Source: Subtercola boreus
GTDB lineage: Bacteria; Actinomycetota; Actinomycetes; Actinomycetales; Microbacteriaceae
NCBI RefSeq assembly: GCF_003399635.1
Contig: NZ_NBXB01000042.1
Span: forward strand, 1-64,000
Length of the DNA: 64,000 nt
Direction: 5' to 3'
The translations under genes and the position numbers were made by a program. Position 1 is the stretch's first letter; each line of letters starts with the position of its first letter. Below are positions 37,231 through 52,056 of this stretch, one piece after another. The notes under the pieces were generated by a model. The model was not told the DNA's origin. It saw nothing but the letters and a program-made list of their open reading frames with translations, and did no database searches.

Positions 37231-39369
37231 ATGAGCGCCTGGTCCCGTCGAACCGTCTGTGCCGCCGTCGCACTGCTGGCCACCCCCGCACTCCTCCTGG
37301 GCGCACCCCTTGCGGCGACAGCGGCGAGCGCAACCGATGCGTCACGGGCACTGGCGGCCGGGCAGGTGGTCGACGCCCCCGGCACGATCTCGTTCGCGGG
37401 AGTCGACTCCATCCCCGACGACTCGGTTCCCGTCTTCGTCACCGTGGATGTGCCCGACGGGCTCTCCCCGACTGCCGCGACGGCGACCCTCACCCCCGTG
37501 GAATCCGACCCGACCGGCACGTCCGGCACGGTGCGGGTGACGGTGAAAGGGGAGCTCCGCCAGAGCGTCGACGCAGCGCAGGCGGCAGCCCTCGACATCC
37601 CGCTCTCGGCCTCCGATGTCGTCGACGGCCGCCTCGCCATCGGCCTCACCTACATTCCGGCCGGCGCGCTCTCCGATGCTGCGGCCGTCGCCGCCTGCAC
37701 TCCCCCGGCGACCGCGAGCGTGAGCCTCAGTGCGGGAACCGTCGCGGTGACGGGTGACGCCACCGCGCCCACAACGGTGGCCGACTTCTTCTCCCCGGCC
37801 CTGAACGCGATCTCAGTGACCCTTCCGGACGACCCGTCGGGCGCTGTCCGCGCAGCGGGACTCGCCGCGATCGGTTCGCTCGCGAAGACCTTCCCCTCGC
37901 CGGTGGCCCTCAGCCTCACCACCGCCTCCGACGCCACCTCCGCCGTGAGCGTGGAGCCCACGCGCGGGCGGATCGTCACCTTCGCCAGCACGGGCGACAC
38001 CTCGGCAGACTCTTCGCAGCCCGTCGAGACGGCCCTCTCCACCTCGGCCGCCGGGGTGCCCCAGCTCACAATCACCGGCCCGGAGAGCGAGCTCGCCGCC
38101 GCCGGTGCCGCCCTCGGCAGCGCCTACCTCCCGCTCGCCTTCGCGGGTACGACCTCCGGGCTGTCCCAATCAGGTTCCAGCACGGCGGGTTCCCTCGTGG
38201 CCGGTCTCGAGCACACCTTCACCGATCTCGGTGCTGGCAACCAGATCGCCCTCTCGGTTCCGGCAGAGACGGCGTCTGTGGTCAACGTGAGCCAGTCCGC
38301 CTTCGGTGGCCCGATCGGCGATGCCACCGTTCACGTCGTCGGCACACACTCCGCCATCCCCGATTCCGTCGTCGCGACCATGAACGTGTACTGGAACGAC
38401 TTCCTCATCGGGTCGGCAGTGCTCGGGAACACTCCCGCCTTCGATGTGAGCCTCCCGGTCGCGTCGACCCGGCTCACCGCCGCCAACGCCCTGAAGGTGA
38501 CACTGAGCGCCCAACGGGCGAGCGGCGAGTGCCTTCCGCCCGAGACGTCGATTCCGATCGAACTCTTCGTCGACAACCGGGCGTCGACCGTTTCGGGAAC
38601 GCGCGGCCAGTCCCTCGATGCCGGCTTCCAGCGCTTCCCGCAGGCCCTCGGCCAGACCCTCCCTGTGGCCTTCGGCACGGGTCTGGATGCCGCATCCGCA
38701 TTGTCTGCGGCGGGCGACATCGTCGCATCACTCCAGCGGAACTCCACCGTGCAGCTCGGGGTCAGCGTCATGTCGGTGGGCGACTTCGCCTCCTCCACCT
38801 TGTCGGGCCTGGTCGTCGGAGCCACCTCCGAGGACTCGAACACGCTGAAGGCACCGCTCCGGCTCGACTCCTTCAAGGCCATCGACTCGAAGACTCTCAC
38901 CTTCGGCGTGGGCACCAGCACTCCCTACGCCGCACTCGAGGGTTTCGAGACGAATGGTCGCAACATCCTGATGCTCGGCGGCTGGGCCCCCGACGGCTCG
39001 GCCTCCGACGCCACCGCTTCCCTGCAGCGCCGGGCGGCCGATCACGCGCTCACCGGCACGGGTGCGTGGTTCGGCCTCTCCGGCGACGTGATCGTGGCCG
39101 GCCCCGGTGCCGACGAACCCGTCGCCCTGTCGAGCAACGCGATCGTGCCCCAGACTGCCGTGACCTCCGACTACAACTCCTACGCCCTCTGGGGCGGCAT
39201 CGTTCTGGCGATCCTGATCCTCGCAGGGGTGATCGGCGAGATCGGCAGGCGCCGCCGCCGCCGGAAGCTCGCGAAGTACGTGGACGCACAGCTCGCCGCC
39301 GACTCCGACCGGGTCTCCGCCCAGCAGGGCGAGGCGGACCCGTCCGGCCGCACGAAGCCGCTGGACTGA
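37231..39369 (+). CDS. BcsB-like anchored exoprotein, partner of the GT2 synthase
   Basis: This ~712-residue protein has a signal peptide (VCAAVALLATPALLLGAPLAATA), a long Ala/Ser/Thr-rich extracytoplasmic beta-sandwich region with repeated jelly-roll-like halves, and one C-terminal TM (ALWGGIVLAILILAGVIGEI) followed by a very basic stop-transfer run (RRRRRRKLAKY). The layout (tandem carbohydrate-binding/ferredoxin-like modules plus C-terminal anchor) and the position before a BcsA-like synthase match BcsB-type co-subunits; the assignment is from architecture and context, since the sequence is divergent. The ATG at 37231 has AAGG upstream; an in-frame GTG exists at 37207. Confidence 0.6.
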   Translation: MSAWSRRTVCAAVALLATPALLLGAPLAATAASATDASRALAAGQVVDAPGTISFAGVDSIPDDSVPVFVTVDVPDGLSPTAATATLTPVESDPTGTSGTVRVTVKGELRQSVDAAQAAALDIPLSASDVVDGRLAIGLTYIPAGALSDAAAVAACTPPATASVSLSAGTVAVTGDATAPTTVADFFSPALNAISVTLPDDPSGAVRAAGLAAIGSLAKTFPSPVALSLTTASDATSAVSVEPTRGRIVTFASTGDTSADSSQPVETALSTSAAGVPQLTITGPESELAAAGAALGSAYLPLAFAGTTSGLSQSGSSTAGSLVAGLEHTFTDLGAGNQIALSVPAETASVVNVSQSAFGGPIGDATVHVVGTHSAIPDSVVATMNVYWNDFLIGSAVLGNTPAFDVSLPVASTRLTAANALKVTLSAQRASGECLPPETSIPIELFVDNRASTVSGTRGQSLDAGFQRFPQALGQTLPVAFGTGLDAASALSAAGDIVASLQRNSTVQLGVSVMSVGDFASSTLSGLVVGATSEDSNTLKAPLRLDSFKAIDSKTLTFGVGTSTPYAALEGFETNGRNILMLGGWAPDGSASDATASLQRRAADHALTGTGAWFGLSGDVIVAGPGADEPVALSSNAIVPQTAVTSDYNSYALWGGIVLAILILAGVIGEIGRRRRRRKLAKYVDAQLAADSDRVSAQQGEADPSGRTKPLD

Positions 39370-39380
39370 GCGGGGCCGGC

Positions 39381-41117
39381 GTGAGCACCCTGAAGGCGGC
39401 ACCGGCTCCGGCGGTGCCTCGCGCGAAACGTCCGGCACCGTCGGAAGCAGCAGCGCCCCCTTCCCCCCTCGCGTCGTCGCGTTTCACCCTGTGGTGCCTC
39501 GAACGGTGGGCGTCGCTCGGAGCCCCCGCCGTCGGTCGTCGCGTGCCGGGCACGATGGTGGTCGCGGTGGCGGCTCTCGCCGTGGGGATCGTGGCGGTGA
39601 TCGTGACCACGTCGAGCGGCCTGAACATCGCCTACGCCGACTCGCAGAGCCACCTCACCATCTCGCGTCGCCTCTTCGACAGCAAGGCGCCGGGATTCAC
39701 CCAGCTCGGAACCGTCTGGCTGCCGGTGCCGAGCCTCATCCTCGTTCCCTTCGTGCAGAACCTCTGGCTCTGGCACACCGGGCTGGCCGCGGGCCTCCTC
39801 GGGCTCGTCTGCCTGATGGGCACGGCCTGCGGCGTCTACCGGGTGGCGGCACGGATCGGGTTGGGCCGCCCGGCACGCATCGCGGGAGTGCTGCTCATCA
39901 TCGCCAACCCGAGCATCCTGTACGTCTTCACCACCGCCCTCACCGAACCGGTGCTGATCCTCTGCATGATGGGCTGTTTCGCCGGCCTTGCACACTGGGT
40001 CACCTCCCGGCGGAACCTCAGCGCCGGCGAGATGATGGTCTTCACGGGGCTCCCGGCCGCGGGCGCGACGCTCTCCCGCTACGAGGGCTGGGTGCTCGTC
40101 GTCGGCGGAACCGTCGTCGTGCTGATCGCGAGCTGGCGCCGCAAGAAGGAGTGGCGCTACGCCGTCAAGATGTCGCTGTCGTTCGCCGTGCTGCCCGCGG
40201 TGGCGATCGGCTGGTGGCTGGCCTACAACTACGCCGTCTACGGCAATCCGCTGGAGTTCCTGAACGGGCAGTACTCCGCGTCGAACCTGCAGAAGGCGAC
40301 GGCTGACGCCGGTCTGCTGGCCTACACCCACAATGCCGGGCTCACGCTCTGGACCTACAACTGGTCGGTTCTGGAGACCGCCGGAGCCCTCACCGTCGTG
40401 CTCGGCATCGGCGGCGCGATCATGCTCGCCTGGCGCTTCGGCCTGTCGAACACCGCATTGCTGGTCTGGGTGATGGGCGTCGCCTACGGCTTCTCGCTGC
40501 TCAGCCTCTATCTCGGCCAGACCCACATGAACAACGACCACTCTCTCCCCGAGAACTGGTGGAATTCGAGGTACGCGCTGGCGGTCATCCCGTGGCTGGC
40601 GGTGCTCGCGGCGGTGCTGGTCGACAGCCTGTCCCGTGTGCCCACGATCGCACCGGGCCTCCTCGCCCTCGTCGGCCTCGCGCTTGTGCTGCAGACGGCC
40701 TGGTGGGCGACAGACCCCGCCCGGTCATCCGTCATCGCCGAAGCCGACGGCTACATCCAGCTGAAGGCGGCCAGCGGCGCGACGGATGCCGCAGCCTTCC
40801 TCCGCGACCACTACGACGGCGGGCAGGTGCTGATGGATGAATCGGCCGCGGGCAGCGCGCTCCTGCCCGAGATCGGCATTCCGCTCGTGGACTACTACAA
40901 CCGCTCGACCGGCAAACTCTTCACGGCGGCGATCGCGGATCCGGTGGGCCACGCGAAGTGGGTCTTCGTCTCGACGGCCGACGCGCCAGAGCTCAGCCAG
41001 ACGGGGGTCGCCGACCTGGTCTACGACGCGGTGAAGAAGCAGCCCTCGTTCGAAACCTCCTACCGGGTCGTCTTCGAAGAGGGCGACTACCGAATCTACG
41101 AGCGGATCTCCTCATGA
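39381..41117 (+). CDS. Polytopic GT-C-like glycosyltransferase (putative)
   Basis: This 578-residue membrane protein has about eleven helices and a first extracytoplasmic loop beginning GLNIAYADSQSHLTISRRLF, the place where GT-C enzymes (ArnT/PMT/arabinosyltransferase type) carry their catalytic acidic motif. ALSRYEGWVLVVGG and NDHSLPENWWNSRYALAVIP are other loop segments. A soluble C-terminal domain (about 450-578) follows. GT-C enzymes use polyprenyl-phosphate sugars, which fits the decaprenyl-phospho-pentose genes nearby. It starts 11 bp after the BcsB-like gene, and its stop overlaps the next ATG. Confidence 0.6.
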   Translation: MSTLKAAPAPAVPRAKRPAPSEAAAPPSPLASSRFTLWCLERWASLGAPAVGRRVPGTMVVAVAALAVGIVAVIVTTSSGLNIAYADSQSHLTISRRLFDSKAPGFTQLGTVWLPVPSLILVPFVQNLWLWHTGLAAGLLGLVCLMGTACGVYRVAARIGLGRPARIAGVLLIIANPSILYVFTTALTEPVLILCMMGCFAGLAHWVTSRRNLSAGEMMVFTGLPAAGATLSRYEGWVLVVGGTVVVLIASWRRKKEWRYAVKMSLSFAVLPAVAIGWWLAYNYAVYGNPLEFLNGQYSASNLQKATADAGLLAYTHNAGLTLWTYNWSVLETAGALTVVLGIGGAIMLAWRFGLSNTALLVWVMGVAYGFSLLSLYLGQTHMNNDHSLPENWWNSRYALAVIPWLAVLAAVLVDSLSRVPTIAPGLLALVGLALVLQTAWWATDPARSSVIAEADGYIQLKAASGATDAAAFLRDHYDGGQVLMDESAAGSALLPEIGIPLVDYYNRSTGKLFTAAIADPVGHAKWVFVSTADAPELSQTGVADLVYDAVKKQPSFETSYRVVFEEGDYRIYERISS

Positions 41118-43057
41118 CCGACCTCGACCGCACCTCGCTCAGGGTGGGTGAGATCCTGGTGAACGCCGGTCTCGTCACCGAGGCTGAGGTTCAGGATGCC
41201 CTCCTGCGGCAGGCCCACGAGGGGGGCCTCCTCGGGCGCCAGCTGATCCTGTCGGGTGTGATCACGCGCCGAGAGATGTATGAGGCCCTCGCCGAGCAGT
41301 GGGAGGCTCCCCTCGTCGATCTCGTGGCGGATCCCCCCGAGGCCGGACTCTTCTCCATCGATGAGCCGGAGCAGTACATCGAGGCCGGCTGGGTGCCCTG
41401 GAAACGCGAAGGCAACGGTGCCGTCATCGCCACGACGGTCCCTCCGACAGACGACGTCATCCACTCCGCCCGCCGGATGCTCGGGGTCAGGAGCATCCGG
41501 GTGCGCACCACCACGGACTGGGACCTCAACCAGGCAGTCGAGGCGGCCTGCCGTACCCGCCTGCTCTTCGGCGCCTCGGATGCCCTCGCCACCGAGAGCT
41601 CGGACGAATCGGCCAAGACGGGCCTCCGTCGCTGGCAGATCGTCGCGCCCGGCGTGCTCGTGGCGCTCATCGTCGCCGGTTGCCTCGTGAACCTCACCGC
41701 GACGCTGGTGCTCGTTCTCACGGCGGCCAACCTCATCTTCCTGATGAACATCGCGTTCAAGGCCGTCGCGGGCTTCCGTGCGCCCTTCAACGTGCGTGAC
41801 AAGGAACGGTGGGCGACCGAAGTCTCGCTCGAACGGGTGAGCCGGGGGCTCGAACCTCTGCCGTCGAGGGTCCCCGACAACGAACTGCCGATCTACACGA
41901 TCCTCGTCCCCGCCTACAAAGAGGCGAACATCATCAGCAAGCTGCTGGTGAACATCGGTGCCATCGACTACCCGAAGGCGAAGCTCGAGGTCATGGTGCT
42001 GCTCGAGGCCGATGACGACGAGACGATCGCCGCCGTGCGCACGATGCGGCCACCCGAGTACGTGCGCATGGTCATCGTGCCTCCGGGCGGCCCGCAGACC
42101 AAGCCCCGCGCCTGCAACTACGGGCTGTCGTTCGCCCGCGGCGAGTTCGTGGTCATCTACGACGCCGAGGACCGCCCGAACCCGTCCCAGCTGCGGGACA
42201 CCGTGGCAGCGTTCCGGCAGGACGAGTTCGAGCGGCGCTACGTGGATCCCTCGCAGAAGAAGCTCGTCTGCCTGCAGGGCGCCCTGGTCTACTTCAACGC
42301 CGACTACAACGTGCTCACCCGGCTCTTCGCCGTGGAGTACGCGCACTGGTTCGACTCGATGCTGCCGGGGCTCGACCAGTCGCACCTCCCCATTCCGCTC
42401 GGCGGCACTTCCAACCACTTCGACACCGCCGTGCTCCGCCAGCTCGGAGCCTGGGATCCCTACAACGTGACCGAGGACGCCGACCTCGGGCTCCGCGTCG
42501 CCGCCCACGGCTACCGCGTCGGCGTGATCGAGGCCTCCACCGGCGAAGAGGCCTGCGCAGAGGTGGGCGCCTGGATCAGGCAGCGCACGCGCTGGATCAA
42601 GGGCTACATCATGACCGCCGCCGTCAACACCCGGCACCCGGTGCGCTGGTTCAGGGTGAACGGCCCCCTCGGCGCGCTGTCGCTGGTGGCCCTCATCCTC
42701 GGAACGCCCCTGGCCTTCCTGCTCTATCCTCTGGTTCTCGGTTTCACCGTGTTCACCTACCTCGGGGTGCAGTTCATCGGGCTCAACCTGCCGGAGTGGC
42801 TGATCGTCGCCGGCACCACGAACATGCTCTTCTCGAACGGGCTGATGATCATCGTCTCGGGCCTCGCGGCCTGGAAGCGCTACAACTGGCGCGTCGCGAT
42901 GTTCGCGCTGCTGAACCCGGCGTACTGGATCCTGCACTCCATCGCCGCCTGGCGGGCGGCCTGGCAGATCGTGTTCAGCCCGCACCACTGGGAGAAGACG
43001 CCGCACGGCCTCACCGAGGAGTACGAGGATTCGGCCTTCGAGGGAAACGGCGCCTGA
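41114..43057 (+). CDS. GT2 family synthase (BcsA-like) with N-terminal MshEN domain
   Basis: This 647-residue protein begins with an MshEN/GspE-N domain: RVGEILVNAGLVTEA (10-24) with QDALLRQ (27-33), then LGRQLILSGVITRRE with ALAEQ (58-62), the tandem RLGxxL...Q pattern known to bind c-di-GMP in MshE. Two TM helices lie at 178-215. The GT2 catalytic core has VLLEADDDE (about 296-303), YDAED (349-353), TEDADLG (453-459) and the QxxRW box QRTRW (490-494). Further TM helices run to about 620. There is no PilZ domain. This is the classic processive polysaccharide synthase layout with a swapped c-di-GMP sensor. The ATG overlaps the upstream stop. Confidence 0.88.
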   Translation: MTDLDRTSLRVGEILVNAGLVTEAEVQDALLRQAHEGGLLGRQLILSGVITRREMYEALAEQWEAPLVDLVADPPEAGLFSIDEPEQYIEAGWVPWKREGNGAVIATTVPPTDDVIHSARRMLGVRSIRVRTTTDWDLNQAVEAACRTRLLFGASDALATESSDESAKTGLRRWQIVAPGVLVALIVAGCLVNLTATLVLVLTAANLIFLMNIAFKAVAGFRAPFNVRDKERWATEVSLERVSRGLEPLPSRVPDNELPIYTILVPAYKEANIISKLLVNIGAIDYPKAKLEVMVLLEADDDETIAAVRTMRPPEYVRMVIVPPGGPQTKPRACNYGLSFARGEFVVIYDAEDRPNPSQLRDTVAAFRQDEFERRYVDPSQKKLVCLQGALVYFNADYNVLTRLFAVEYAHWFDSMLPGLDQSHLPIPLGGTSNHFDTAVLRQLGAWDPYNVTEDADLGLRVAAHGYRVGVIEASTGEEACAEVGAWIRQRTRWIKGYIMTAAVNTRHPVRWFRVNGPLGALSLVALILGTPLAFLLYPLVLGFTVFTYLGVQFIGLNLPEWLIVAGTTNMLFSNGLMIIVSGLAAWKRYNWRVAMFALLNPAYWILHSIAAWRAAWQIVFSPHHWEKTPHGLTEEYEDSAFEGNGA

Positions 43058-43063
43058 GCCGCG

Positions 43064-43858
43064 TCAGAAATCGAGTCTGTTGAACACGACCCGGGGAATC
43101 AGCCGCACGACCGTCATGATGAGCTGCCACTTCGCCGGGGCGTAGACCACTGGCCGGCCGGCGTTCACCCCCGCCACGATCTCCGCGGCGACAGCCGACA
43201 CCGGGGCCAGACCCTTCTGGGGCAGGCCGGCCGTCATGGGCGTCGCCGTCGGGCCGGGCTTAACCAGCACCACCCGAAGCGGCGAGCCAGCGGTGCGGTG
43301 CTGCAGGCCTTCCGCCATCCGCTCGATGAGCCCCTTCGAGGCGCCGTAGATGTAGTTCTTTCTGCGCCCACGGTCGCCCGCGACCGACCCGAGCACGGCG
43401 ACGGTGCCGGCGGTCATCGTGTCTGCCGAGGCCTCCAGCCAGAGTGAGGGTGAGACACCCGTGACCTGCAGCACCGCGGCGGCCTTCGCGAGGTCGGCCT
43501 GCGACTCGGCCTGCTCCGTCATCGAGCCGTGAGCGATGAGCACCGTGAGCCCCGCCCCGGCCGCCGCTCCCGCAGTTCCCGGGCCCGCAAACCCGGCGAC
43601 CGCGTCACCGATGGCGCCGACGTCGAGCAGGTCAATCGACGAGGTGCTGATCTCCGCCGCCGGGAAGCGCACCCGGAGGTCGGTGGCGACCCGGTCGAGC
43701 CCCGCATGGTCGCGCCCGATCAGCAGGACCGAGGATGCCCCACCCTCCAGCCACAGTCGCGTGCAGTTCGAGGCTATCGCCGAGGTCGCGCCGATCACGA
43801 CGACATCGGTCGGCCACGTCGACGGCTTCGATCCGGGGCGGGAGGGCAATGCGGGCAT
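43064..43858 (-). CDS. DprE2-like short-chain dehydrogenase
   Basis: This 264-residue SDR has the nucleotide loop VVVIGATSAIASNC and catalytic YGASKG (Tyr-x3-Lys). It resembles DprE2, which reduces the 2-keto intermediate to decaprenyl-phospho-D-arabinose after DprE1 oxidation. The family name is supported mainly by its position: its ATG directly follows the DprE1-like TGA. Convergent with the GT2 gene, 6 bp apart. Confidence 0.8.
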   Translation of the reverse strand: MPALPSRPGSKPSTWPTDVVVIGATSAIASNCTRLWLEGGASSVLLIGRDHAGLDRVATDLRVRFPAAEISTSSIDLLDVGAIGDAVAGFAGPGTAGAAAGAGLTVLIAHGSMTEQAESQADLAKAAAVLQVTGVSPSLWLEASADTMTAGTVAVLGSVAGDRGRRKNYIYGASKGLIERMAEGLQHRTAGSPLRVVLVKPGPTATPMTAGLPQKGLAPVSAVAAEIVAGVNAGRPVVYAPAKWQLIMTVVRLIPRVVFNRLDF

Positions 43859-45235
43859 TCAGCTTCCTAACAGTCGACGGGACATCTCCGAGCTGATGCC
43901 CGGATCGCGGTACTCGGTGAATTCGGCGAGGCGGGGGTAGCCCGCCTCGAACAGGGCGACGGGCATCCGGGCATCCTTGGCCAGGTAGAGTCGCCCACCG
44001 TGCTCGGTGACGACCGCGTCGAGCGACGAGAGCAGCGCCAGGGTCGATGCACCCAGGTTCGGGAAGTCGATCGTCAGGTTCACCCCGGGCCGCGCGAAGC
44101 TCAGCATGCCGATGGGCTCCCGGTCGCCGAGCGTCTTCAGCACACCGAGGAACGACCCCTGGCCGGAGCGGGCGACGATGGCCAGGATCTGCCGCACGCT
44201 CTCGAGCCCCGTCGCCCGGGGCAGAACGCACTGGTACTGGTAGAAGCCGCGCGGTCCGTAGGCCCTGTTCCACTCCTCGACGGCGTCGAGCGGGTAGAAG
44301 AAGGGTTTGTAGTGCACGACCTTCGAACCGGCACGCGTTCTCTTCAGGCGATAGTAGGCCCGGTTGAGAAGCGGCAGCGTCAGGCTGTTGACGAGCGAGA
44401 GCGGCGGCACGACGGGAAAGGTGATCCCGCCCTTCGCCGCTCCGAGCGAGGTGGCCGACGGCGGCACCTCCCTGTGCGGGGAGGGAACGGGGTTCGCCCG
44501 GGACAGGATGCCGCGGCGACCGCCCCCGGTCGTGATGTCGATCCACGACACCACGTGTTCGAACGACTGCTCCGACGAATCCGAGAGCTCGAAGAACTCG
44601 GGGAGCGACTGGTACGGGATGTCCTCGGCGAGCAGCCACGGCCCCGGAACCCGCTTCAGCCGGATGGAGGCCTGGACGATGAGGCCTGTCAGCCCGAGGC
44701 CGCCGCAGGTCGCCTCGAACCAGCCCCGGCTCTCTGGCTCGTCGCCCGGGCCGCACACGATGACCTCGCCGTCGGTGCGCACCAGGGTGATCGAGACCAC
44801 GTGGTCGGCGAAGGTGCCCATGGTGGCGTGGTTCTTGCCGTGCACATCATTGGCGATGGCGCCGGCCACCGTCACGATCTCTGTGCCGGGCGTGACGGCG
44901 AGCATCCAGCCCTGCCTGCTGAAGGTCGCCTGGATGTCCCGCAGCAGCACTCCGGGCTCGACGGTCAGGATGCCCGTGGCGTCGTCGAAGGCCAGCAGGC
45001 GGTTCATCGAGCGGGTGTCCCACAGGGTGCCGCCGGCGTTCAGCGCGACATCGCCGTAGCTGCGCTCCATGCCGCGTGCGATGCCCGGGGCGCTCGCCTG
45101 CAGGATGGCGGGGGCGGCATCCGCCGAGGTGATCGGAACGACGGAGTGCTCGGCGTCGCTGAGACGCCCCCACGACGAGACCCTGCTCGACGGGACACTG
45201 CTTGACGAGACCCTGCTCGACGAGACCTGGCTCAC
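43859..45235 (-). CDS. DprE1-like FAD-dependent decaprenyl-phosphoribose oxidase
   Basis: This 458-residue VAO-family flavoprotein has an FAD-binding domain with PGIARGMERSYGDVALNAGG, TVAGAIANDVHGKNHATMG and ATCGGLGLTG, matching the DprE1 HGKNH motif. The C-terminal substrate domain holds KPFFYPLDAVEEWNRAYG and PGVNLTIDFPNLG. DprE1 oxidises decaprenyl-phosphoribose at C2. The residue in the place of M. tuberculosis Cys387 (NICVDFP) is Thr here (NLTIDFP). The first 20 codons are a tandem SSRVS repeat from four 15-bp DNA units. The GTG start overlaps the GtrA-like stop. Confidence 0.85.
   Translation of the reverse strand: MSQVSSSRVSSSSVPSSRVSSWGRLSDAEHSVVPITSADAAPAILQASAPGIARGMERSYGDVALNAGGTLWDTRSMNRLLAFDDATGILTVEPGVLLRDIQATFSRQGWMLAVTPGTEIVTVAGAIANDVHGKNHATMGTFADHVVSITLVRTDGEVIVCGPGDEPESRGWFEATCGGLGLTGLIVQASIRLKRVPGPWLLAEDIPYQSLPEFFELSDSSEQSFEHVVSWIDITTGGGRRGILSRANPVPSPHREVPPSATSLGAAKGGITFPVVPPLSLVNSLTLPLLNRAYYRLKRTRAGSKVVHYKPFFYPLDAVEEWNRAYGPRGFYQYQCVLPRATGLESVRQILAIVARSGQGSFLGVLKTLGDREPIGMLSFARPGVNLTIDFPNLGASTLALLSSLDAVVTEHGGRLYLAKDARMPVALFEAGYPRLAEFTEYRDPGISSEMSRRLLGS
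45176..45235 (-). repeat. Four 15-bp tandem repeats in 5' end of dprE1-like gene
   Basis: Units at 45176-45190, 45191-45205, 45206-45220 and 45221-45235 (consensus CGAGACCCTGCTCGA on the plus strand) encode tandem SSRVS-type pentapeptides. Units 1 and 3 are identical. In-frame unit gain or loss would alter only the N-terminal tail. Confidence 0.85.
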
Positions 45236-45696
45236 AGCGACTCCGTTCCGGCACGGTCGGCCCTGAAGGTGATGTTCTTGTCGAGGTAGTACTTGATGAC
45301 GTAACCGATCGCGAGGCCGATCACCGCTCCGGTGTATTTCGCCGCGTCAGTACCGAACACCAGCAGCGCGCCGAATTCGAAACCCCAGAAGATCAACGTC
45401 GTGATCCCGCTCATGACCGTGTAGAGGCCGAGGGTGCGGGCCTGGTGTTTCATGCTCTTCACTTCGAACCGGAAGATGAATCGCTTGTCGAGAAGGTACT
45501 TCGTCACGACTCCGACACCCGTGCCGACGATCACGCTCGCGACCAGAGCGAACGGGCCGGTGTAGAGCGCTTGCGTCACGAACTGGGAACCGAGGTTCGT
45601 GACCGTGGAGATCGCGGCGAAGAGCACATAGAGCAACCCAGTTCTCACGGAATGGTTAACCTTTTCGGGGGAATCAATAGCTCTAGTATGAGTCAT
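45232..45696 (-). CDS. GtrA-like membrane protein
   Basis: This 154-residue four-helix GtrA-family protein contains LLYVLFAAISTVTNLGSQF, GTGVGVVTKYLLDKRFIF and AIGYVIKYYLDKNITF. GtrA proteins flip or help present polyprenyl-phosphate sugars; the M. tuberculosis homologue Rv3789 sits beside dprE1-dprE2 and has been tied to decaprenyl-phospho-arabinose. It is the first gene of a three-gene coupled unit with DprE1-like and DprE2-like. The ATG at 45696 is preceded by AGGGG. Confidence 0.85.
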   Translation of the reverse strand: MTHTRAIDSPEKVNHSVRTGLLYVLFAAISTVTNLGSQFVTQALYTGPFALVASVIVGTGVGVVTKYLLDKRFIFRFEVKSMKHQARTLGLYTVMSGITTLIFWGFEFGALLVFGTDAAKYTGAVIGLAIGYVIKYYLDKNITFRADRAGTESL

Positions 45697-45793
45697 ATGG
45701 CCCCTGTCGTGGGGGTGGGGTCCAAGTCTGCCATGGTCGGCTCCGCCCCCACGAGCCATCCCGGCGGCGAGCCGGTGGAATGGGGGAACAACA

Positions 45794-46717
45794 GTGACAG
45801 TCGTACAGGTCGGGTCGACATCCAGGATGCCAGCCTTTCTCCGGGCCATGCGCCCCAAGCAGTGGCTGAAGAACGTGCTGCTCGCCGTCGCCCCCCTTTC
45901 CGCCGGCGTGCTGCTCGAGCCGGGTGTGATCGTGGAGGTGCTGCTGGCGATCGTCGCCTTCAGCCTCACGTCGTCGGGCGGCTACATGCTGAACGACCTG
46001 CTGGACATCGAGTCCGACCGCCTCCACCCGAAAAAGCGGTTCCGACCGATTCCGTCGGGAGAGTTTCCTGTCCGCGCCGCCTGGCCGACGGCCCTCGTCC
46101 TGCTGGTGGTTCCGAGCGCGGTCGCCATCGTCGCCGGTCATGTGCTCTTCGGGGCAGTGCTGCTGACCTACGTCGTCATCCAGGTCTCGTACTGCATCTG
46201 GCTGAAGCACCAGCCCGTGATCGACATCATCGTCGTCGCCAGCGGCTTCGTGCTCCGGGCGATCGCCGGCGCGGCCGTGGTGGGAATCCCCGTCACCCAG
46301 TGGTTCCTCCTGGTGATCTCCTCGGGTTCGCTGTTCATGGTCGCGGGCAAGCGGTACTCCGAGAAGGTGGGCAGCGCCGGCCAGGAAGAGCTGCACACCC
46401 GGAAGACGCTGGATCTGTACAGCCTCGGCTATCTCCGCTTCGTCTGGACGGTCGCTGCGACGCTCACCATGCTCTCGTACGCGATGTGGGCGTTCGACCT
46501 GAACGGAGGCACTTCCATCGGCTCGATCGCCTCGATCGTCCCGTTCGGGGTCGCCCTGCTCCTCTATGCCTTCGACATCGAGAAGGGTGACGCGAGCGCG
46601 CCGGAAGAGGTGGTGCTGAAAGACGTGCGGCTGTTCGTCTGCGGCATGATCTGGGCCGGCCTCTTCCTGGTGTCTGTGCTCGCCCGCCTGTACGGCTGGG
46701 AGCTGCCGACCCTCTGA
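45794..46717 (+). CDS. UbiA-family decaprenyl-phosphate phosphoribosyltransferase-like
   Basis: This 307-residue polytopic prenyltransferase starts RAMRPKQWLKNVLLAVAPL. The metal-binding motif NDLLDIESDRLHPKKRFRP (Asn-Asp-x3-Asp-x3-Asp) is the form seen in Rv3806c-type 5-phospho-ribose-1-diphosphate transferases, rather than quinone UbiA. GKRYSEKVGSAG is the second conserved loop. It would make the first committed intermediate of decaprenyl-phospho-ribose/arabinose. GTG start after GGGGG. It is divergent from gtrA-dprE1-dprE2. Confidence 0.87.
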   Translation: MTVVQVGSTSRMPAFLRAMRPKQWLKNVLLAVAPLSAGVLLEPGVIVEVLLAIVAFSLTSSGGYMLNDLLDIESDRLHPKKRFRPIPSGEFPVRAAWPTALVLLVVPSAVAIVAGHVLFGAVLLTYVVIQVSYCIWLKHQPVIDIIVVASGFVLRAIAGAAVVGIPVTQWFLLVISSGSLFMVAGKRYSEKVGSAGQEELHTRKTLDLYSLGYLRFVWTVAATLTMLSYAMWAFDLNGGTSIGSIASIVPFGVALLLYAFDIEKGDASAPEEVVLKDVRLFVCGMIWAGLFLVSVLARLYGWELPTL

Positions 46718-46771
46718 GACCGGGCGGCTAGGCCGGGCGGCCTCACCCGACCTGTCTCAGCCCGATGGCCC

Positions 46772-47299
46772 TCAGCCGACCGGCAGCGACGTGATGATCA
46801 GCGCCGCAGGAACGCCCACCAGAAGCCCGAGGGCGAACCCGGCCAGCACATCCGTGACGAAGTGCATGCCGAGAAGCACTCTGCTCGCGCCCATGAGCAC
46901 GACGAGAACCAGGGCAACCGGCCAGAGCACAGGAACCAGAGCGGTGTAGACCACGGCCGCGGCCATGGTCGATGCCGCGTGCGAACTCGGAAAGCTGAGC
47001 TTGCTCGGCGCGCTCGCGTAGACGGTCACCGAGGCGTCGCTGCCGGGGCGGGGCCGCCTGACGACCCGCTTGACGGCGATGGACAGGCCATGTGCCAGCA
47101 CGACGGCCACGACCCCGCCCAACCAGGCCTGCCAGCGTGCGGAGTCGACGACCGCGCCGACCAGCCCGACAAGGATCCATCCCGCCGCATGCTCACCGAT
47201 CAGACTGAGCGCGCGGCCCAGAGGCACCAGCGCCCGCGCTGCCGGCAGACGTTGCACGCCCACGATGAACAGGGTCTCCCTGCTGCGAAGCGACGTCAC
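46772..47299 (-). CDS. PAP2-superfamily phosphatase (Rv3807c-like)
   Basis: This 175-residue five-helix phosphatase has the three PAP2 motifs: KRVVRRPRPG, SFPSSHAAST and SRVLLGMHFVTDVLAG. In M. tuberculosis the PAP2 gene Rv3807c neighbours the UbiA enzyme Rv3806c and is thought to remove the 5-phosphate before DprE1. Here it is the last gene of the c-di-GMP operon (22 bp after GGDEF) and faces the UbiA gene, keeping that pairing. Confidence 0.88.
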   Translation of the reverse strand: MTSLRSRETLFIVGVQRLPAARALVPLGRALSLIGEHAAGWILVGLVGAVVDSARWQAWLGGVVAVVLAHGLSIAVKRVVRRPRPGSDASVTVYASAPSKLSFPSSHAASTMAAAVVYTALVPVLWPVALVLVVLMGASRVLLGMHFVTDVLAGFALGLLVGVPAALIITSLPVG

Positions 47300-47321
47300 G
47301 CGCGAATCCGATCGCGATCCA

Positions 47322-48338
47322 TCAGAGGATCCGGATCAGGTTGCGGCCGGTCGCCTTGGCCTCGTAGAGCGCACGGTCGGCGTGCCGCATCAACTCGTCG
47401 AGCCTGCCGATCACCTCGCCAGACCGACCGACGCGGATCGTTGCCGCACCTCCCACACTCGCCGTCATCTTCGGCGTGAGGGGGAGGCCCTCCACGGCGG
47501 CCCGCACCCGTTCGGCGATGAAGCTCAGGTCCTCCTCGGCGGAGATGACGGTGAAGATGCAGAATTCGTCGCCGCCGATGCGCACGCAGACGTCGCTCTC
47601 GCGGGTCGTGTCCACCAGGGCACGAGCAACACCCTTCAGCACAACGTCTCCCGCCTCATGACCGAGCGTGTCGTTGACCGCCTTGAAGTGGTCGAGATCG
47701 ATCAGGAGACACCCCACGCGCTGGCCGGTTCTCTCGGCCAGCGCGATCATGATCGGAATGTTGACCTCCATGCTCCGCCGGTTCGCCAGCCCCGTCAGAG
47801 AGTCGGTGAGCGAGAGGGCGATGGCTTCGTCCCGGGCGGCCTGGAGTGATTGGCGGAGAACGAGCACGACGAGCGAGCTGATCGTCATAAGGGCCAGGAA
47901 GATGATCGCCGCCACGATGGGGATGGAGGAGCGCAGCAGGATGATGAGCAGACCGAGAACGGTGCACCCGATCGAGATGCCTGCCGCGACCCTGATCTTC
48001 AGGAAGGCGGCTGCCGCCACGGCAGTTCCAAGGAAGACGAAGGCGGTCAGCACACCGATGGCGGAAGGCTGGATGCTGAGACCGATGACGGTCGTGAGCA
48101 GCGTCGTCGCGATGACCACCCGCGTCGTGAAGCGCGTCGTCACCCACGTGGTCACCCTCGCATAGACGGTGATACCGAGCCCGGCCGCGACTCCGGCGAA
48201 CGTGACCCACCTGGCCCAACCGGGGTTGAAGTCGGCCGTTGCCGACAGGACCGCCAGGAACAGGGCCCCCGGCAGGAAGATGAACTGCAGGGAGAGCGCG
48301 CGCACCTCGCGCACACTCCTGTTCGCGAAGATCCTCAC
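47322..48338 (-). CDS. Membrane diguanylate cyclase (GGDEF) with intact I-site
   Basis: This 338-residue protein has an N-terminal membrane module of about six helices, then a GGDEF domain. The active site is RIGGDEFCIF, the preceding substrate loop is LTDSLTGLANRRSME and LDHFKAVNDTLGHEAGD, and an inhibitory RxxD site is present as RESD eight residues before GGDEF. It should make c-di-GMP with product feedback. The GTG overlaps the EAL gene stop (GTGA). Confidence 0.92.
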   Translation of the reverse strand: MRIFANRSVREVRALSLQFIFLPGALFLAVLSATADFNPGWARWVTFAGVAAGLGITVYARVTTWVTTRFTTRVVIATTLLTTVIGLSIQPSAIGVLTAFVFLGTAVAAAAFLKIRVAAGISIGCTVLGLLIILLRSSIPIVAAIIFLALMTISSLVVLVLRQSLQAARDEAIALSLTDSLTGLANRRSMEVNIPIMIALAERTGQRVGCLLIDLDHFKAVNDTLGHEAGDVVLKGVARALVDTTRESDVCVRIGGDEFCIFTVISAEEDLSFIAERVRAAVEGLPLTPKMTASVGGAATIRVGRSGEVIGRLDELMRHADRALYEAKATGRNLIRIL

Positions 48339-49570
48339 AGCCGCACCGCCAGAGCGAGGGCTCCCCGCGTGACGAGCTCCCGATCGTGCGTGAGGATGTA
48401 CTCGAACAGTCCCGGCCCATCGGGATGGCTCACCTCGCGGGCCGTCAGCATCGCGGAGTAGGTGCCGCTGAGCACGATCATCGACCATTCCGCGCGGAGC
48501 GGATCCGAGGCGGCGAAGGCACGCACCTCGAGCCGGTCGATGCCGTCCAGCGCCGGCAGCGTTCCGAACCGGTCCTGCAGGAAGACGGCCACCAGGCTGG
48601 AACGGCTGGCGAGCGTCGTGTAGCGGGCACGCAGGTCGTCGCCGAAGTCCGCATCGTCCCGGAACGTCGACAGCACGACCATCGAAGAGTCGCCGTCGAG
48701 GGCACGGGCCTCCAGCAGCATGCTCGTCTGCACGAGCAGCGGCCGGGTCGACGTCATCGGGGTTCTGAACTGTGCGGCGATCGAGAACGGCGTGGCCGCC
48801 GGTCGCGTCTCCGCGACATGCGCGCGCACCTGCACCCCGGGGGGAGAGGCATTGGGCGCGAGATCGCTCGGTCGCCCGAACAGGTACCCCTGCCCGAGCG
48901 TCGCACCGAGCGCGAGCGCCTGGCTGACGTGCTGCTCGGTCTCGACACCCTCTGCGACCACCACAGCGCCGAACTCCTCCTGGTAGGTGCTGACGGCGTC
49001 CATGATCCGCGCCGTGTGCCTGCTGGGCTGATTCTGCAGCAGGCTCATGTCCAGTTTGATGACGTCCGGACGCACGAGAGGGAGCACGGCGAGCGACGCC
49101 GGGTTGCTCCCGACGTCATCCATCGCGATCTTCAGCCCGGAGGCCCGTAGGCGCGAGACCGACCTCAGGAGCATCCCGAGATCGTCCAGCAGGTCGCGCT
49201 CGGTGATCTCCACCACGACGACCAGGCTGATCGGCAGGAGATCGGCGAAGAGGTCGAGCGCCTGCGCCTCCACATTCACGAACAGCGAGAGCGGCTCGAC
49301 GATGCCCGCGCGGTGCCCCGCCCGCAGGGACTCCGCCACGCAGGCCTGGTCGAGCGCTGACGTCAGCCCAACCTCGCTCGCCACCCGGAACAGGGTGTCG
49401 GGCATCTCCGCCGACGACCCCGCCGGCCCTCTGCTCAGGGCCTCGTACGCGACGACTCTTCGCGTCTCCAGATCGACGATCGGCTGGAAGACGGTGTGGA
49501 GATCACCTTCTCGGATGATGCGGCGGACTTCGGCAACCGTTCCGGTCTCGGTCACGATGGACTCTCTCAC
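48335..49570 (-). CDS. c-di-GMP phosphodiesterase: EAL plus DICT domain
   Basis: This 411-residue cytoplasmic protein has a complete EAL set: YEALSRG, NVEAQAL, EITERDL, MDDVGS, IKLDMSLL, EGVETEQHV and LGQGYLFGRP, so hydrolysis of c-di-GMP is expected. The C-terminal ~150 residues (TSMLLEARALDGDSSMVVLSTF, VAVFLQDRFGTL) match a DICT sensory domain, a module of unknown ligand linked to c-di-GMP and light or redox signalling. No TM. GTG start overlaps the beta-helix gene stop. Confidence 0.92.
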   Translation of the reverse strand: MRESIVTETGTVAEVRRIIREGDLHTVFQPIVDLETRRVVAYEALSRGPAGSSAEMPDTLFRVASEVGLTSALDQACVAESLRAGHRAGIVEPLSLFVNVEAQALDLFADLLPISLVVVVEITERDLLDDLGMLLRSVSRLRASGLKIAMDDVGSNPASLAVLPLVRPDVIKLDMSLLQNQPSRHTARIMDAVSTYQEEFGAVVVAEGVETEQHVSQALALGATLGQGYLFGRPSDLAPNASPPGVQVRAHVAETRPAATPFSIAAQFRTPMTSTRPLLVQTSMLLEARALDGDSSMVVLSTFRDDADFGDDLRARYTTLASRSSLVAVFLQDRFGTLPALDGIDRLEVRAFAASDPLRAEWSMIVLSGTYSAMLTAREVSHPDGPGLFEYILTHDRELVTRGALALAVRL

Positions 49571-50739
49571 GTCCTGATGACGGCGTTGTCTGCGTGGTTG
49601 CCCACGACCTCGGTGTCGGAGCAGGTGATGAACCGACAGGGCTGTACGGCCATATGGCCCTCTTTCCACTGGTTGCCCACGGCGGCGATGGCCCGGGCGA
49701 AGGTTGCTTCGATGACGTAGGTCCAGCCGGCCCCGTCATCGTCGCAGGCGAAGGTGTTGCCGGTGACAGAGAAGCCCTCGGTGCGTGCCGCGCTCGACAC
49801 CCCCGCGATTGTGATCGCCGGATAGGTGTTCTGGGCGAGTTTTCCCCCGTTGGAGAACGTGTTGCCGACGATCTGGATCTGGGGTTTGTCGGAGCCGAGC
49901 CACGGCGGCATCGTGTAGACGATGGACTGCTTGCGCGACCCCTCGAGGATGTTGTTGGAGACCAGAATGCGCTTGTTGCCGCGGAACTCGATGTTGTAGG
50001 TCGGCGAACCGTCGAGGTGATTGCCGAGGATCCGCACGGGCCCACCCTCGATCGAGAGGTCGGCGTAGCTCGCGCCGATGTTGTTGTTGAGGATCCAGGA
50101 ATCGTAGAACCGGTAACCGGTGTGGATGCCTGTACCGGTGTTCTGCTGGATGTTGCAGCGGTCGATCACGTTCAGCAGGCCACCCTGGTCGGCGAATGTG
50201 CCGTCGTTCAGCAGCATGCCGTAGCCGTTCCAGTTCAGCAGCAGCAGTCTCTCGAAGTGGGTCTTGTCGAAATGCCCGGAGACACAGGCCCCGCCGAGTC
50301 CGCCCGAATCGAGCACCAGATTGACGAAGGTGCAGATGTACCAGAGCCCCGTGAAGAGGGGGGCATCCGTCGACGCGCGGATCGTCGCGATCTGGGAACC
50401 TGCCCCCTCCAACCGGATGCTCGTGAACCCCGCCGCCGTGTCCCCGATGGAACCCGAGACCAGGTAGACACCGACCGGGAACCACACGGTTCCGCCGCCG
50501 GCACCACTCGCAGCCGACATCGCCGCCTGGATGGCCGGCAGATCATCCTGCACCCCGTCACCCGCGGCCCCGAAGTCGCGCACGTTGAACACCAGGCCGC
50601 CGGGCGTCGCCGCGGCGGGGGCGACATCCGCTGGTACCCGCGGGCCCGACAACGCCGAGGGCAGCGCAACGCCGGACGCGGCACCCGCGAAGAGCGCCCG
50701 CCGGGTCAGTTCTGCAGCGAAGATGATCTCAGCGACCAC
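49567..50739 (-). CDS. Secreted right-handed beta-helix (pectate-lyase-3-like) protein
   Basis: This 390-residue protein has a possible twin-arginine signal (ELTRRALFAGAASGVALPSAL) and then the Pectate_lyase_3/GH28-type entry motif FNVRDFGAAGDGVQDDLPAIQAAM. Successive coils of Asn-rich beta-helix follow (NVIDRCNIQQNTG, ILGNHLDGSP, VSNNILEGS, IVGNTFSNGG). It may cut or trim the matrix polysaccharide. It sits between a GGDEF gene and the EAL gene, coupled to the latter. Confidence 0.85.
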   Translation of the reverse strand: MVAEIIFAAELTRRALFAGAASGVALPSALSGPRVPADVAPAAATPGGLVFNVRDFGAAGDGVQDDLPAIQAAMSAASGAGGGTVWFPVGVYLVSGSIGDTAAGFTSIRLEGAGSQIATIRASTDAPLFTGLWYICTFVNLVLDSGGLGGACVSGHFDKTHFERLLLLNWNGYGMLLNDGTFADQGGLLNVIDRCNIQQNTGTGIHTGYRFYDSWILNNNIGASYADLSIEGGPVRILGNHLDGSPTYNIEFRGNKRILVSNNILEGSRKQSIVYTMPPWLGSDKPQIQIVGNTFSNGGKLAQNTYPAITIAGVSSAARTEGFSVTGNTFACDDDGAGWTYVIEATFARAIAAVGNQWKEGHMAVQPCRFITCSDTEVVGNHADNAVIRT

Positions 50740-50809
50740 AGTGCACCCCCCGATACGAGCCCGCAGGTGTCCTGCAGGCGTTTCACGCCTTGACGGTCAG
50801 CGTACATGT

Positions 50810-51862
50810 TCATGTCAGGTTCCCCCGAGTCGCGATGCGGATGGTGTCCCTGCCGGCGCGTTTCGCCTCGTAGAGCAGCCGATCGGCTTCCGCGAACAGG
50901 GCGTCCAGCTCGGTCATCGTGCCCGCGCGTCCGGCTGCGCCGCCGATGCTCACAGTCACCCTCGGCAGTATCTCCCCCGAGGCCCGCTCGGTCATGCTCG
51001 AGCGCAGTCGGGCCGTCAGGCGCCCGGCGAGCTGGTCGAGCTCTAAGGCATCCGCGACCGGGGAGAACACCGCGAACTCCTCCCCGCCCGTGCGGACGAC
51101 CAGGCTCGGGCTCCGCACCTCACGGCTCAGGGTGTGGGCGGTGTTGATCAACACGAGGTCGCCGGTCTGGTGCCCGTAGGTGTCATTGACGTGCTTGAAG
51201 TGGTCGAGATCGAGCACGAGGCAGCCGAGCAACTGGCCGAGAGCGTCGGCACGGGCATCCAGAGCCGGAACAGCGGACTCCATCCCCCGTCGGTTGAGCA
51301 CACCGGTGAGGGAGTCGGTGCCGGCCTGGGTCAGGGCGTTGTCACGCGCGAGCTCCAGGAACAGACGCAGTTTGACGATGAGGTATCCCCCGCTGACGAC
51401 GAGACCGATGTAGATCAGCACCACCGCAAGCGGGATCGTGCTCCGCGTCACGGCGACGAACACGGCCAGCGCCGTACCGAGAGCGCCGAGGATCGCGCCG
51501 GCGCGGTAGGTGTCGAGCGTGATCGCCGACAGGGTGAGGGCGAGCAGCGAGAACGACGTGATCACGGCCAGGTCGGCCTGGGAGACCGACACCGACAGAG
51601 TCGCGATCGTCAGCATGGCGGCGCCGATCAGGATGCGGCCCGGAACATGGGACTCGATGACCCGCCTGCGTACCAGCGCTGCGACAAGGGCCGCCACCAC
51701 CGCCACACCGGCCAGCCCCACGTTGACCCACTGGGGTTGGACGTCCACGAAGACGGCCAAGATCGCGTAGCGCACAGCCGTTTCGATGGCCAGCACCTGG
51801 ATGACCCGGGTTCTGAAGTCCAGTTCGAGGGCCTGGGTCCTGCCGCTCCGCCCGCCGCTCAT
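50810..51862 (-). CDS. Membrane diguanylate cyclase (GGEEF), no I-site
   Basis: This 350-residue protein has about six N-terminal helices (to ~175), a linker, then a GGDEF domain with LTQAGTDSLTGVLNRRGME, DLDHFKHVNDTYGHQTGD and the active site RTGGEEFAVF. The RxxD inhibitory site is replaced (RSPS), so product inhibition should be weak. Its ATG overlaps the stop of a 64-codon gene (TGATG). Confidence 0.92.
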   Translation of the reverse strand: MSGGRSGRTQALELDFRTRVIQVLAIETAVRYAILAVFVDVQPQWVNVGLAGVAVVAALVAALVRRRVIESHVPGRILIGAAMLTIATLSVSVSQADLAVITSFSLLALTLSAITLDTYRAGAILGALGTALAVFVAVTRSTIPLAVVLIYIGLVVSGGYLIVKLRLFLELARDNALTQAGTDSLTGVLNRRGMESAVPALDARADALGQLLGCLVLDLDHFKHVNDTYGHQTGDLVLINTAHTLSREVRSPSLVVRTGGEEFAVFSPVADALELDQLAGRLTARLRSSMTERASGEILPRVTVSIGGAAGRAGTMTELDALFAEADRLLYEAKRAGRDTIRIATRGNLT

Positions 51863-52056
51863 CAGGCGACGCCTTGGGATCCGAACTTTCCCTCGATCTG
51901 TTCGGCCAGCTCCTCCTCGGCGATGACGCCCCAGTCGATGTCATGCGCGTGATCAACGCTGACGTCGAGAGTGTGGCGGACCCCTTTCCGCGTCAGGGGC
52001 AACGAGGTCGTCGCCGGCTCGACACACTGATCGACGGTGCAGTGAGCCTCTGCCAC
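51862..52056 (-). CDS. Small 64-residue protein coupled to a diguanylate cyclase
   Basis: This GTG-started protein has two cysteines (CTVDQC) followed by VRHTLDVSVDHAHD and an acidic, helical C-terminus (WGVIAEEELAEQIEGKFGS). I do not recognise a family; the Cys/His spacing resembles a degenerate zinc-ribbon. GGGG lies upstream. It overlaps the GGEEF gene by one base and appears first in the c-di-GMP operon, so it may be a regulator or partner of the cyclase. Confidence 0.6.
   Translation of the reverse strand: MAEAHCTVDQCVEPATTSLPLTRKGVRHTLDVSVDHAHDIDWGVIAEEELAEQIEGKFGSQGVA

Follow-up and report, generated by a model that had tools for sequence, protein, structure and literature searches.

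Does the region between positions 37,231 and 52,056 of the Subtercola boreus contig NZ_NBXB01000042.1, part of the 64,000-nucleotide stretch that we analyzed (the window), encode one exopolysaccharide system or several that happen to be neighbors? An initial annotation had read it as a polysaccharide locus gated by cyclic di-GMP (c-di-GMP) and fused to a pathway leading to a decaprenyl-phospho-pentose. The genes it named are all present: family matches identify the glycosyltransferase family 2 (GT2) synthase, the DprE1-like, DprE2-like, GtrA, UbiA-type and PAP2 proteins, two GGDEF proteins, an EAL-DICT protein and a beta-helix protein, and fold predictions support the BcsB-like and GT-C-like identities. 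We favor, with moderate confidence, the explanation that the locus directs a c-di-GMP-gated, synthase-dependent exopolysaccharide that is decorated with pentose through the GT-C enzyme in some lineages; its two parts differ in strength, the gated synthase being very probable and the idea that this GT-C decorates the polymer with pentose a more tentative suggestion.

The case for gating begins with the synthase itself. Its PF13641 match (93 bits, cut-off 27) is accompanied by the catalytic signatures DxD, TED and QxxRW (as ADDD, DAED, TEDADLG and QRTRW), and residues 10–62 match the MshE-related c-di-GMP-binding domain NF053729 at 50.6 bits (cut-off 38); the Pfam MshEN model PF05157 scores 25.6 bits (cut-off 23.1), and in a PDB sequence search the N-terminus also matched solved MshEN domains. 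The consulted part of PMC5013675 gives the MshEN consensus as two RLGxx(LVI)2xxG(LVI)2xxxxLxxxLxxQ motifs with a 5-residue spacer. In the synthase, RVGEILVNAGLVTEAEVQDALLRQ and LLGRQLILSGVITRREMYEALAEQ stand in tandem, separated by the five residues AHEGG, and these motifs agree with the published 24-residue consensus, the sole departure being L for R at the opening of the second motif. Judged from sequence, gating of the GT2 by c-di-GMP through its fused MshEN domain is well supported. The "BcsA-like" label first given to the synthase is fair for the polymerase and wrong for its control, which we could rule out as being of the BcsA type: PilZ was found neither in the protein nor in any of 14 genomes searched, that of the window (G000, 99.97% complete) included, and MshEN is present instead.

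Whole-genome counts in G000, covering GGDEF, EAL, MshEN and PilZ (other receptor types and HD-GYP fall outside them), gave two, one, one and zero, respectively, and all those present lie inside this locus. The first diguanylate cyclase (GGDEF1) has an intact GGDEF and an RxxD I-site (RESD-VCVRI-GGDEF); the second (GGDEF2) reads GGEEF and has RSPS at the RxxD position of the I-site. The proposal that c-di-GMP controls the GT2/BcsB unit is therefore borne out, as far as domain content can tell, by a receptor fused to the synthase and by a genome whose counted GGDEF, EAL and MshEN genes all reside here.

To see how far this arrangement extends, we refer to a survey of 249 Microbacteriaceae genomes (cut-offs of E ≤ 1e-60 for the GT2 and DprE1-like proteins and E ≤ 1e-10 for GGDEF) and to 23 distinct loci in which the GT2 gene adjoins the GT-C gene, called triad loci here with the BcsB-like gene as third member (the window, L003–L014, L016, L098 and L101–L108; L007 and L099 are one place and were entered once, the fragments L015 and L059 were dropped, and L104 is cut within GT-C). 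Fifty of the 65 GT2 loci gathered (L017–L058 and L060–L067, nearly all labeled Alphaproteobacteria) were set aside; our own models, built from actinobacterial sequences such that distant kin may escape them, found no BcsB or GT-C in these, and their MshEN motif scores are mostly low, L018, L020 and L048 being partial exceptions. A GT2 of the window's type occurs in 33 of the 249 genomes, with GT-C adjacent in 11; the other 22 form a second GT2 subfamily, of which 19 were viewed as loci with flanks of ~1.5 kb, GT-C being absent there, and six of these 19, seen in longer stretches, were also without GT-C or BcsB (G018, G127 and G205 were assigned to this subfamily by score alone, with no locus). 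A recognizable tandem MshEN motif is present in 22 of the 23 triad loci (17–22 of 22 positions by our own scoring, the window being read directly); in the second subfamily the motif is mostly decayed (11–14 of 22).

A rival explanation is that the GGDEF and EAL proteins act on other targets, that MshEN persists as no more than a structural remnant and that synthesis is constitutive. The Pfam MshEN score barely above its cut-off would suit this, as would the second GT2 subfamily, which keeps the domain without the motif and of which one member (G080) still passes NF053729 (38.3 bits vs. 38), and two genomes without a detected GGDEF gene, G041, which has the triad, and G014, which has the motif. 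The window argues otherwise, with an NF053729 score well above cut-off, two near-perfect motifs and no other MshEN or PilZ in the genome to serve as receptor, and the low motif scores of the second subfamily set it apart from the triad synthases; we regard constitutive synthesis as very unlikely. Gating by c-di-GMP also agrees with gene distribution: within the flanking sequence retrieved, 16 of the 23 triad loci (the window and 15 of the 22 others) show a GGDEF gene, and GGDEF was found in 10 of 11 triad genomes vs. 104 of 238 without a triad (p = 0.002). Several observations weigh against it. No GGDEF gene was seen in the fetched flanks of seven of the 23 loci (L008, L009 (Leucobacter), L014, L016, L104, L105 and L108), the association is not significant when counted by genus (5/6 vs. 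48/79, p = 0.26), and the metagenome-assembled genome (MAG) G014 (L016) keeps the MshEN motif at 19 of 22 positions, yet no GGDEF was found in it. On the side of gating, G041 (L105), the one exception both to the 10 of 11 triad genomes with GGDEF and to the 22 of 23 loci with the motif, combines a degenerate MshEN motif with no GGDEF found in the genome, one natural co-loss. This 1.4-Mb genome keeps BcsB, GT-C and GT2 (L105 9059–10945), and a GtrA-like reading frame, recognized by eye, lies just upstream of its GT2.

The two partners of the synthase were identified by fold. The 712-residue protein encoded first in the triad has no Pfam or NCBIfam match, and neither its sequence nor its 14-member alignment retrieved BcsB when searched against PDB sequences. 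Its AlphaFold2 (AF2) model is of moderate confidence (pLDDT 68.7, pTM 0.61); in a Foldseek search of the PDB the top 22 matches were BcsB chains, four of them from entries whose title names only a cellulose synthase complex (best E-value 1.6e-25 at 12% identity), and the next match had an E-value of 1.8e-5. With hydrophobic segments at its N- and C-termini, this protein is, on its modeled fold, BcsB-like with a C-terminal transmembrane (TM) anchor. BcsB was seen in 21 of the 23 triad loci, and not in L016 or in L104 (contig ends). The GT-C protein likewise has no Pfam match, and a PDB sequence search with its alignment gave none; its model (pLDDT 75.4, pTM 0.80) retrieved 16 PDB matches at E ≤ 0.001, all of them GT-C enzymes or complexes containing one (ALG12, oligosaccharyltransferase complexes, DPY19, AftD, ArnT, AftB and Pmt4). 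Residues D87 and H91, past the first TM helix, are invariant in 14 aligned sequences. As these matches mix enzymes with different lipid-linked donors, AftB being top in identity (18%) but not in E-value, the donor of the GT-C cannot be read from its fold. In all untruncated loci examined for this GT2 subfamily, with or without pentose genes, the GT-C gene adjoins GT2, and a pentose donor is therefore not intrinsic to the GT-C.

We place the system among relatives that include E. coli NfrB, Listeria Pss and Bcs. The nearest published architecture that we found for an MshEN–GT2 is NfrB: as described in the consulted part of PMC8669469, NfrB/NfrA/YbcH also combines a GT2 with a fused MshEN receptor and a local diguanylate cyclase; however, its MshEN is C-terminal, unlike the N-terminal domain of the window's GT2, NfrA is an outer-membrane pore, and the nfrBA-ybcH operon is described there without GT-C or pentose genes. 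The window's GT2 scores far below the NfrB equivalog NF008411 (24.5 bits vs. 1170). Listeria monocytogenes PssA-E is, in the sections of PMC4125290 and PMC5039582 consulted, a Gram-positive c-di-GMP-activated polymer system with a GT2 (PssC), a BcsB ortholog (PssD) and a decorated chain (N-acetylmannosamine (ManNAc) with galactose); it differs in that the receptor PssE binds c-di-GMP through a GGDEF I-site and not MshEN, and those sections describe no pentose pathway. Bacterial cellulose synthase BcsA/BcsB shares the BcsB fold and the processive GT2 signatures, whereas the window has MshEN, no PilZ and a GT-C gene in the unit.

The likeness to Bcs raises the alternative of a plain Bcs-type glucan product, cellulose or another, in which case the GT-C would act on something else. 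The BcsB fold and the partial similarity of the GT2 to CelA speak for it, but the GT2 is just as close to PgaC/IcaA as to CelA (3.2e-11 each), the Listeria BcsB ortholog goes with a ManNAc-galactose polymer (PMC4125290 and PMC5039582, as far as consulted), and a UDP-GlcNAc 2-epimerase gene lies beside the triad in L008; we consider a plain glucan unlikely. A ManNAc backbone is hinted at by Listeria Pss, by that epimerase and by NfrB, which is modeled as using UDP-ManNAc (PMC8669469, consulted part). The same part of L008 (1110–6040) also encodes one further BcsB-like protein and one further GT2.

We then turn to the source of the pentose. The mycobacterial decaprenyl-phospho-arabinose (DPA) pathway comprises the UbiA-type Rv3806c, the PAP2-type Rv3807c, DprE1, DprE2 and the GtrA protein Rv3789, with the gene order GtrA-DprE1-DprE2 as Rv3789–Rv3791. 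The window has a homolog for each step, and its GtrA-DprE1-DprE2 order is the same; unlike that pathway, its DprE1 and DprE2 score under the equivalog cut-offs and AftA/Emb was not found in 14 genomes. The UbiA-type protein exceeds the cut-off of 207 bits for the DPPR-synthase equivalog NF008978 and falls under that of the narrower model NF008976 (269.3 vs. 474 bits); it matches the solved DPPR synthase 8j8j with an E-value of 2.9e-65 and shares with it the motif NDxxDxxxDRxHPxKRxRPI. The DprE1-like protein matches solved DprE1 with an E-value of 1.7e-70, well short of its curated equivalog (Table 1). At what we take to be the DprE1 active-site residues, Y60, H132, Q334, Q336, K367, N385, Y415 and K418 are conserved, and C387 and Y314 are replaced by T388 and F313. 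For the DprE2-like protein, likewise short of its equivalog, the top model was that of another short-chain dehydrogenase/reductase (SDR) family, NF005489 (189 bits vs. 267). The GtrA protein scored 160.6 bits against NF037976 (cut-off 50) and 35.4 bits against PF04138, and a PDB sequence search with it gave no useful result. No AftA or Emb arabinosyltransferase was found in the 14 genomes searched (the search did not extend to AftB, AftC and AftD), which rules out a canonical AftA/Emb arabinan system in these and makes the GT-C the closest candidate for using the pentose. S. boreus uses D-arabinose and D-ribose, unlike S. frigoramans and strain DB165 (PMC5945732, consulted part), and the literature examined, seen in part, yielded no cell-wall sugar composition for Subtercola.

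The pentose genes lie on the triad's contig, in the same order, in 11 of the 23 triad loci. The order, i.e., the triad, then facing DprE2, DprE1 and GtrA, then UbiA, recurs in three genera: in eight Subtercola loci (the window, L003, L004, L005, L006, L010, L013 and L098), in genus g45 (L102, and G130 (L100/L101) with an intervening ~25 kb) and in Leucobacter chironomi (L009). Together with the GGDEF flanks, this indicates that the neighborhood goes beyond chance. Between these genera DprE1 is only 54–61% identical despite the kept order. Pairwise identities of GT2, GT-C, DprE1, DprE2 and UbiA over the 11 loci correlate strongly (r 0.94–0.99), which fits shared vertical inheritance and is by itself no evidence for joint function; three gain or loss events are required to explain the linkage on the GT2 tree, parts of which are uncertain owing to some long branches. 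A DprE1-like gene was found in nine of the 249 genomes, in 6 of 11 with the triad vs. 3 of 238 without (p = 1e-7), and of the six Subtercola genomes sampled four have both the triad and a DprE1-like gene and two (G104 and G262) have neither.

These data must be set against a number of findings that weaken the link. L098 lacks GtrA, and PAP2 is near in seven of the 11 linked loci and missing from L003, L009, L100 and L102. By genus the DprE1 association is weak (2/6 vs. 3/79, p = 0.04). The triad occurs without a DprE1-like gene in eight genomes, several of them MAGs or incomplete: in Alpinimonas psychrophila the triad is present and a DprE1-like match is absent; in Nocardioides sp. Root190 and two MAGs the matches do not exceed the weak level of flavin adenine dinucleotide (FAD) oxidases (best 9e-14); and no DprE1-like gene was found at E ≤ 1e-60 in the triad genomes G084, G079, G041 and G160 (G079 and G160 being 83% and 87% complete). 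Conversely, three genomes lack the triad yet have pentose genes: DprE1/DprE2-like genes with a HAD-UbiA protein in G080 and G177, and a canonical DprE1 in G078. A pentose pathway as an obligate part of the triad is thereby ruled out; triads lacking a DprE1-like gene, as in Alpinimonas, Nocardioides and others, make the pathway an accessory of the triad and not, as the initial annotation had it, fused to it. The finding that this annotation named as its refutation, relatives with the triad and no pentose genes, is thus what we observe. Its pentose-step homologs are nonetheless real and syntenic with the triad in three genera, though DprE1 and DprE2 lie under the curated cut-offs. Canonical DprE1 occurs in three MAGs holding this GT2 (G012, G013 and G014); the contig bearing it in G012 and G014 differs in length from the triad's, and in G013 it lies at a position past the end of the GT2's contig. 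Two-domain HAD-UbiA proteins stand beside DprE1/DprE2-like genes, with no triad, in L115 (10733–12199) and L114 (10778–12253); the HAD domain is over its cut-off in L115 and under it in L114, and in these proteins the phosphatase step may be fused to DPPR synthase.

The exopolysaccharide could be gated as proposed while the pentose lipid goes into another surface glycan (a lipoglycan or a polymer of the wall), with some other polyprenyl-phosphate sugar as the GT-C donor and the two clusters no more than neighbors. The eight triad genomes with GT-C and no DprE1-like gene, the pentose genes of G080 and G177, and the placement of triad and pentose genes on opposite strands in separate units are all in keeping with this. 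Order and orientation nevertheless persist in three genera across diverged DprE1 sequences, triad and DprE1-like gene are jointly absent from two of six Subtercola genomes, and AftA/Emb was not found in 14 genomes. A separate fate of the pentose is a serious competitor, to which we give appreciable weight short of an even chance. On the explanation that we prefer, decoration of the gated polymer, the two membrane GGDEF proteins would make c-di-GMP and the EAL-DICT protein would remove it, as their domains and motifs suggest; by domain homology, c-di-GMP would bind the N-terminal MshEN of the GT2 and turn on polymerization and extrusion through its membrane domain. The BcsB-fold protein would take up the chain at the outer face, where the GT-C may add side residues from a polyprenyl-phosphate sugar, and the beta-helix protein may trim or modify the polymer. 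For Subtercola, genus g45 and Leucobacter, a polyprenyl-phospho-arabinofuranose would be the likeliest donor, presumably synthesized by UbiA, the phosphatase, DprE1 and DprE2, with GtrA as its usual flippase.

The arabinose-lipid donor pathway is familiar mainly from mycobacteria and their kin. Here it appears to be linked to an inducible polymer and, within one genus, to be dispensable; the Gram-positive c-di-GMP circuit is compact and may have a single dedicated receptor, and the BcsB-fold partner is invisible to the sequence models used. We speculate, with considerable doubt, that a Gram-positive bacterium without AftA/Emb decorates a c-di-GMP-switched polymer through a mycobacterial-type arabinose-lipid and devotes all its counted GGDEF, EAL and MshEN genes to that polymer. 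The literature searched held nothing joining DprE1 with Microbacteriaceae or decaprenylphosphoryl with c-di-GMP; Microbacteriaceae with c-di-GMP and exopolysaccharide turned up just sludge granulation and fruit biofilms among the records seen, MshEN in Actinobacteria gave, by titles, no such synthase, and BcsB, Actinobacteria, c-di-GMP and glycosyltransferase led to the Listeria Pss work (PMC4125290, seen in part).

The genes (Table 1) fall into four groups: (a) BcsB-like, GT-C and GT2 on the + strand; (b) GtrA, DprE1-like and DprE2-like on the − strand, running toward (a); (c) UbiA, a lone gene on the + strand that points away from GtrA and toward PAP2; and (d) the small protein, GGDEF2, beta-helix, EAL-DICT, GGDEF1 and PAP2 on the − strand. 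Short gaps and overlaps confirm the coupled units proposed for (a) and (d): BcsB and GT-C are 11 nt apart and GT-C overlaps GT2 by 4 nt; the small protein overlaps GGDEF2 by 1 nt, the beta-helix/EAL and EAL/GGDEF1 overlaps are 4 nt each, and PAP2 starts 22 nt after GGDEF1. In (b), GtrA overlaps DprE1 by 4 nt and DprE1 abuts DprE2. A promoter and terminator scan gave fewer sites than shuffled sequence.

Table 1. Genes of the probable S. boreus exopolysaccharide locus, with window coordinates and the basis of each assignment.
Product	Position	Strand	Evidence
BcsB-fold exported protein, C-terminal membrane anchor, 712 aa (predicted)	37231..39369	+	AF2 model and fold search
GT-C fold multi-TM glycosyltransferase, 578 aa (predicted)	39381..41117	+	AF2 model, fold search, 14-sequence alignment
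Processive GT2 synthase with N-terminal MshEN	41114..43057	+	PF13641, PF05157, NF053729, motifs
DprE2-like SDR	43064..43858	-	NF053786 118.7 bits, under cut-off 250
DprE1-like FAD oxidase	43859..45235	-	NF053785 333.6 bits, under cut-off 500
GtrA-family small membrane protein, candidate flippase for lipid-linked sugar	45232..45696	-	NF037976, PF04138
UbiA-type decaprenyl-phosphate phosphoribosyltransferase (DPPR synthase)	45827..46717	+	NF008978 332.5 bits
PAP2-type phosphatase, candidate for DPPR dephosphorylation	46772..47299	-	PF01569 70.4 bits
Membrane GGDEF diguanylate cyclase 1	47322..48338	-	PF00990 129.7 bits
EAL phosphodiesterase, C-terminal DICT sensory domain	48335..49570	-	PF00563 140.2 bits, PF10069 30.1 bits
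Beta-helix/pectate-lyase-like protein, candidate polymer-modifying enzyme	49567..50739	-	PF12708 60.2 bits, PF13229 29.9 bits
Membrane GGDEF diguanylate cyclase 2	50810..51862	-	PF00990 117.9 bits
Small protein, 64 aa, overlaps GGDEF2 start	51862..52056	-	Similar stretches in three other Subtercola loci

The beta-helix protein has a twin-arginine translocation (Tat)-like N-terminus, TRRALF (signal type assigned by eye), and a relative lies near the triad in genus g45 (L101 and L102). Stretches 39–42% identical to the 64-residue small protein occur at the matching locus end in Subtercola L003, L004 and L098, its orientation relative to the beta-helix gene being reversed in L003 and L098. The GT2 of the window is 99% identical to that of S. 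boreus P27444. GT2 and DprE2 are 6 bases apart in the window (43057–43064) vs. 1.2–1.9 kb in Subtercola L004, L005, L006, L010 and L013, and the lists of open reading frames (ORFs) of L005 and L010 show that this interval holds ORFs not in the window. In L109 and L110 a second-subfamily GT2 with a degenerate MshEN motif is followed by a gene without a Pfam match and then a class II tRNA-synthetase gene (threonyl type by domains). Two records are possibly mislabeled or contaminated: L059, a "Conexibacter" MAG with a GT2 fragment 95–96% identical, and L043, a "Bacillus subtilis" contig whose GT2 is like those of Pseudochrobactrum.

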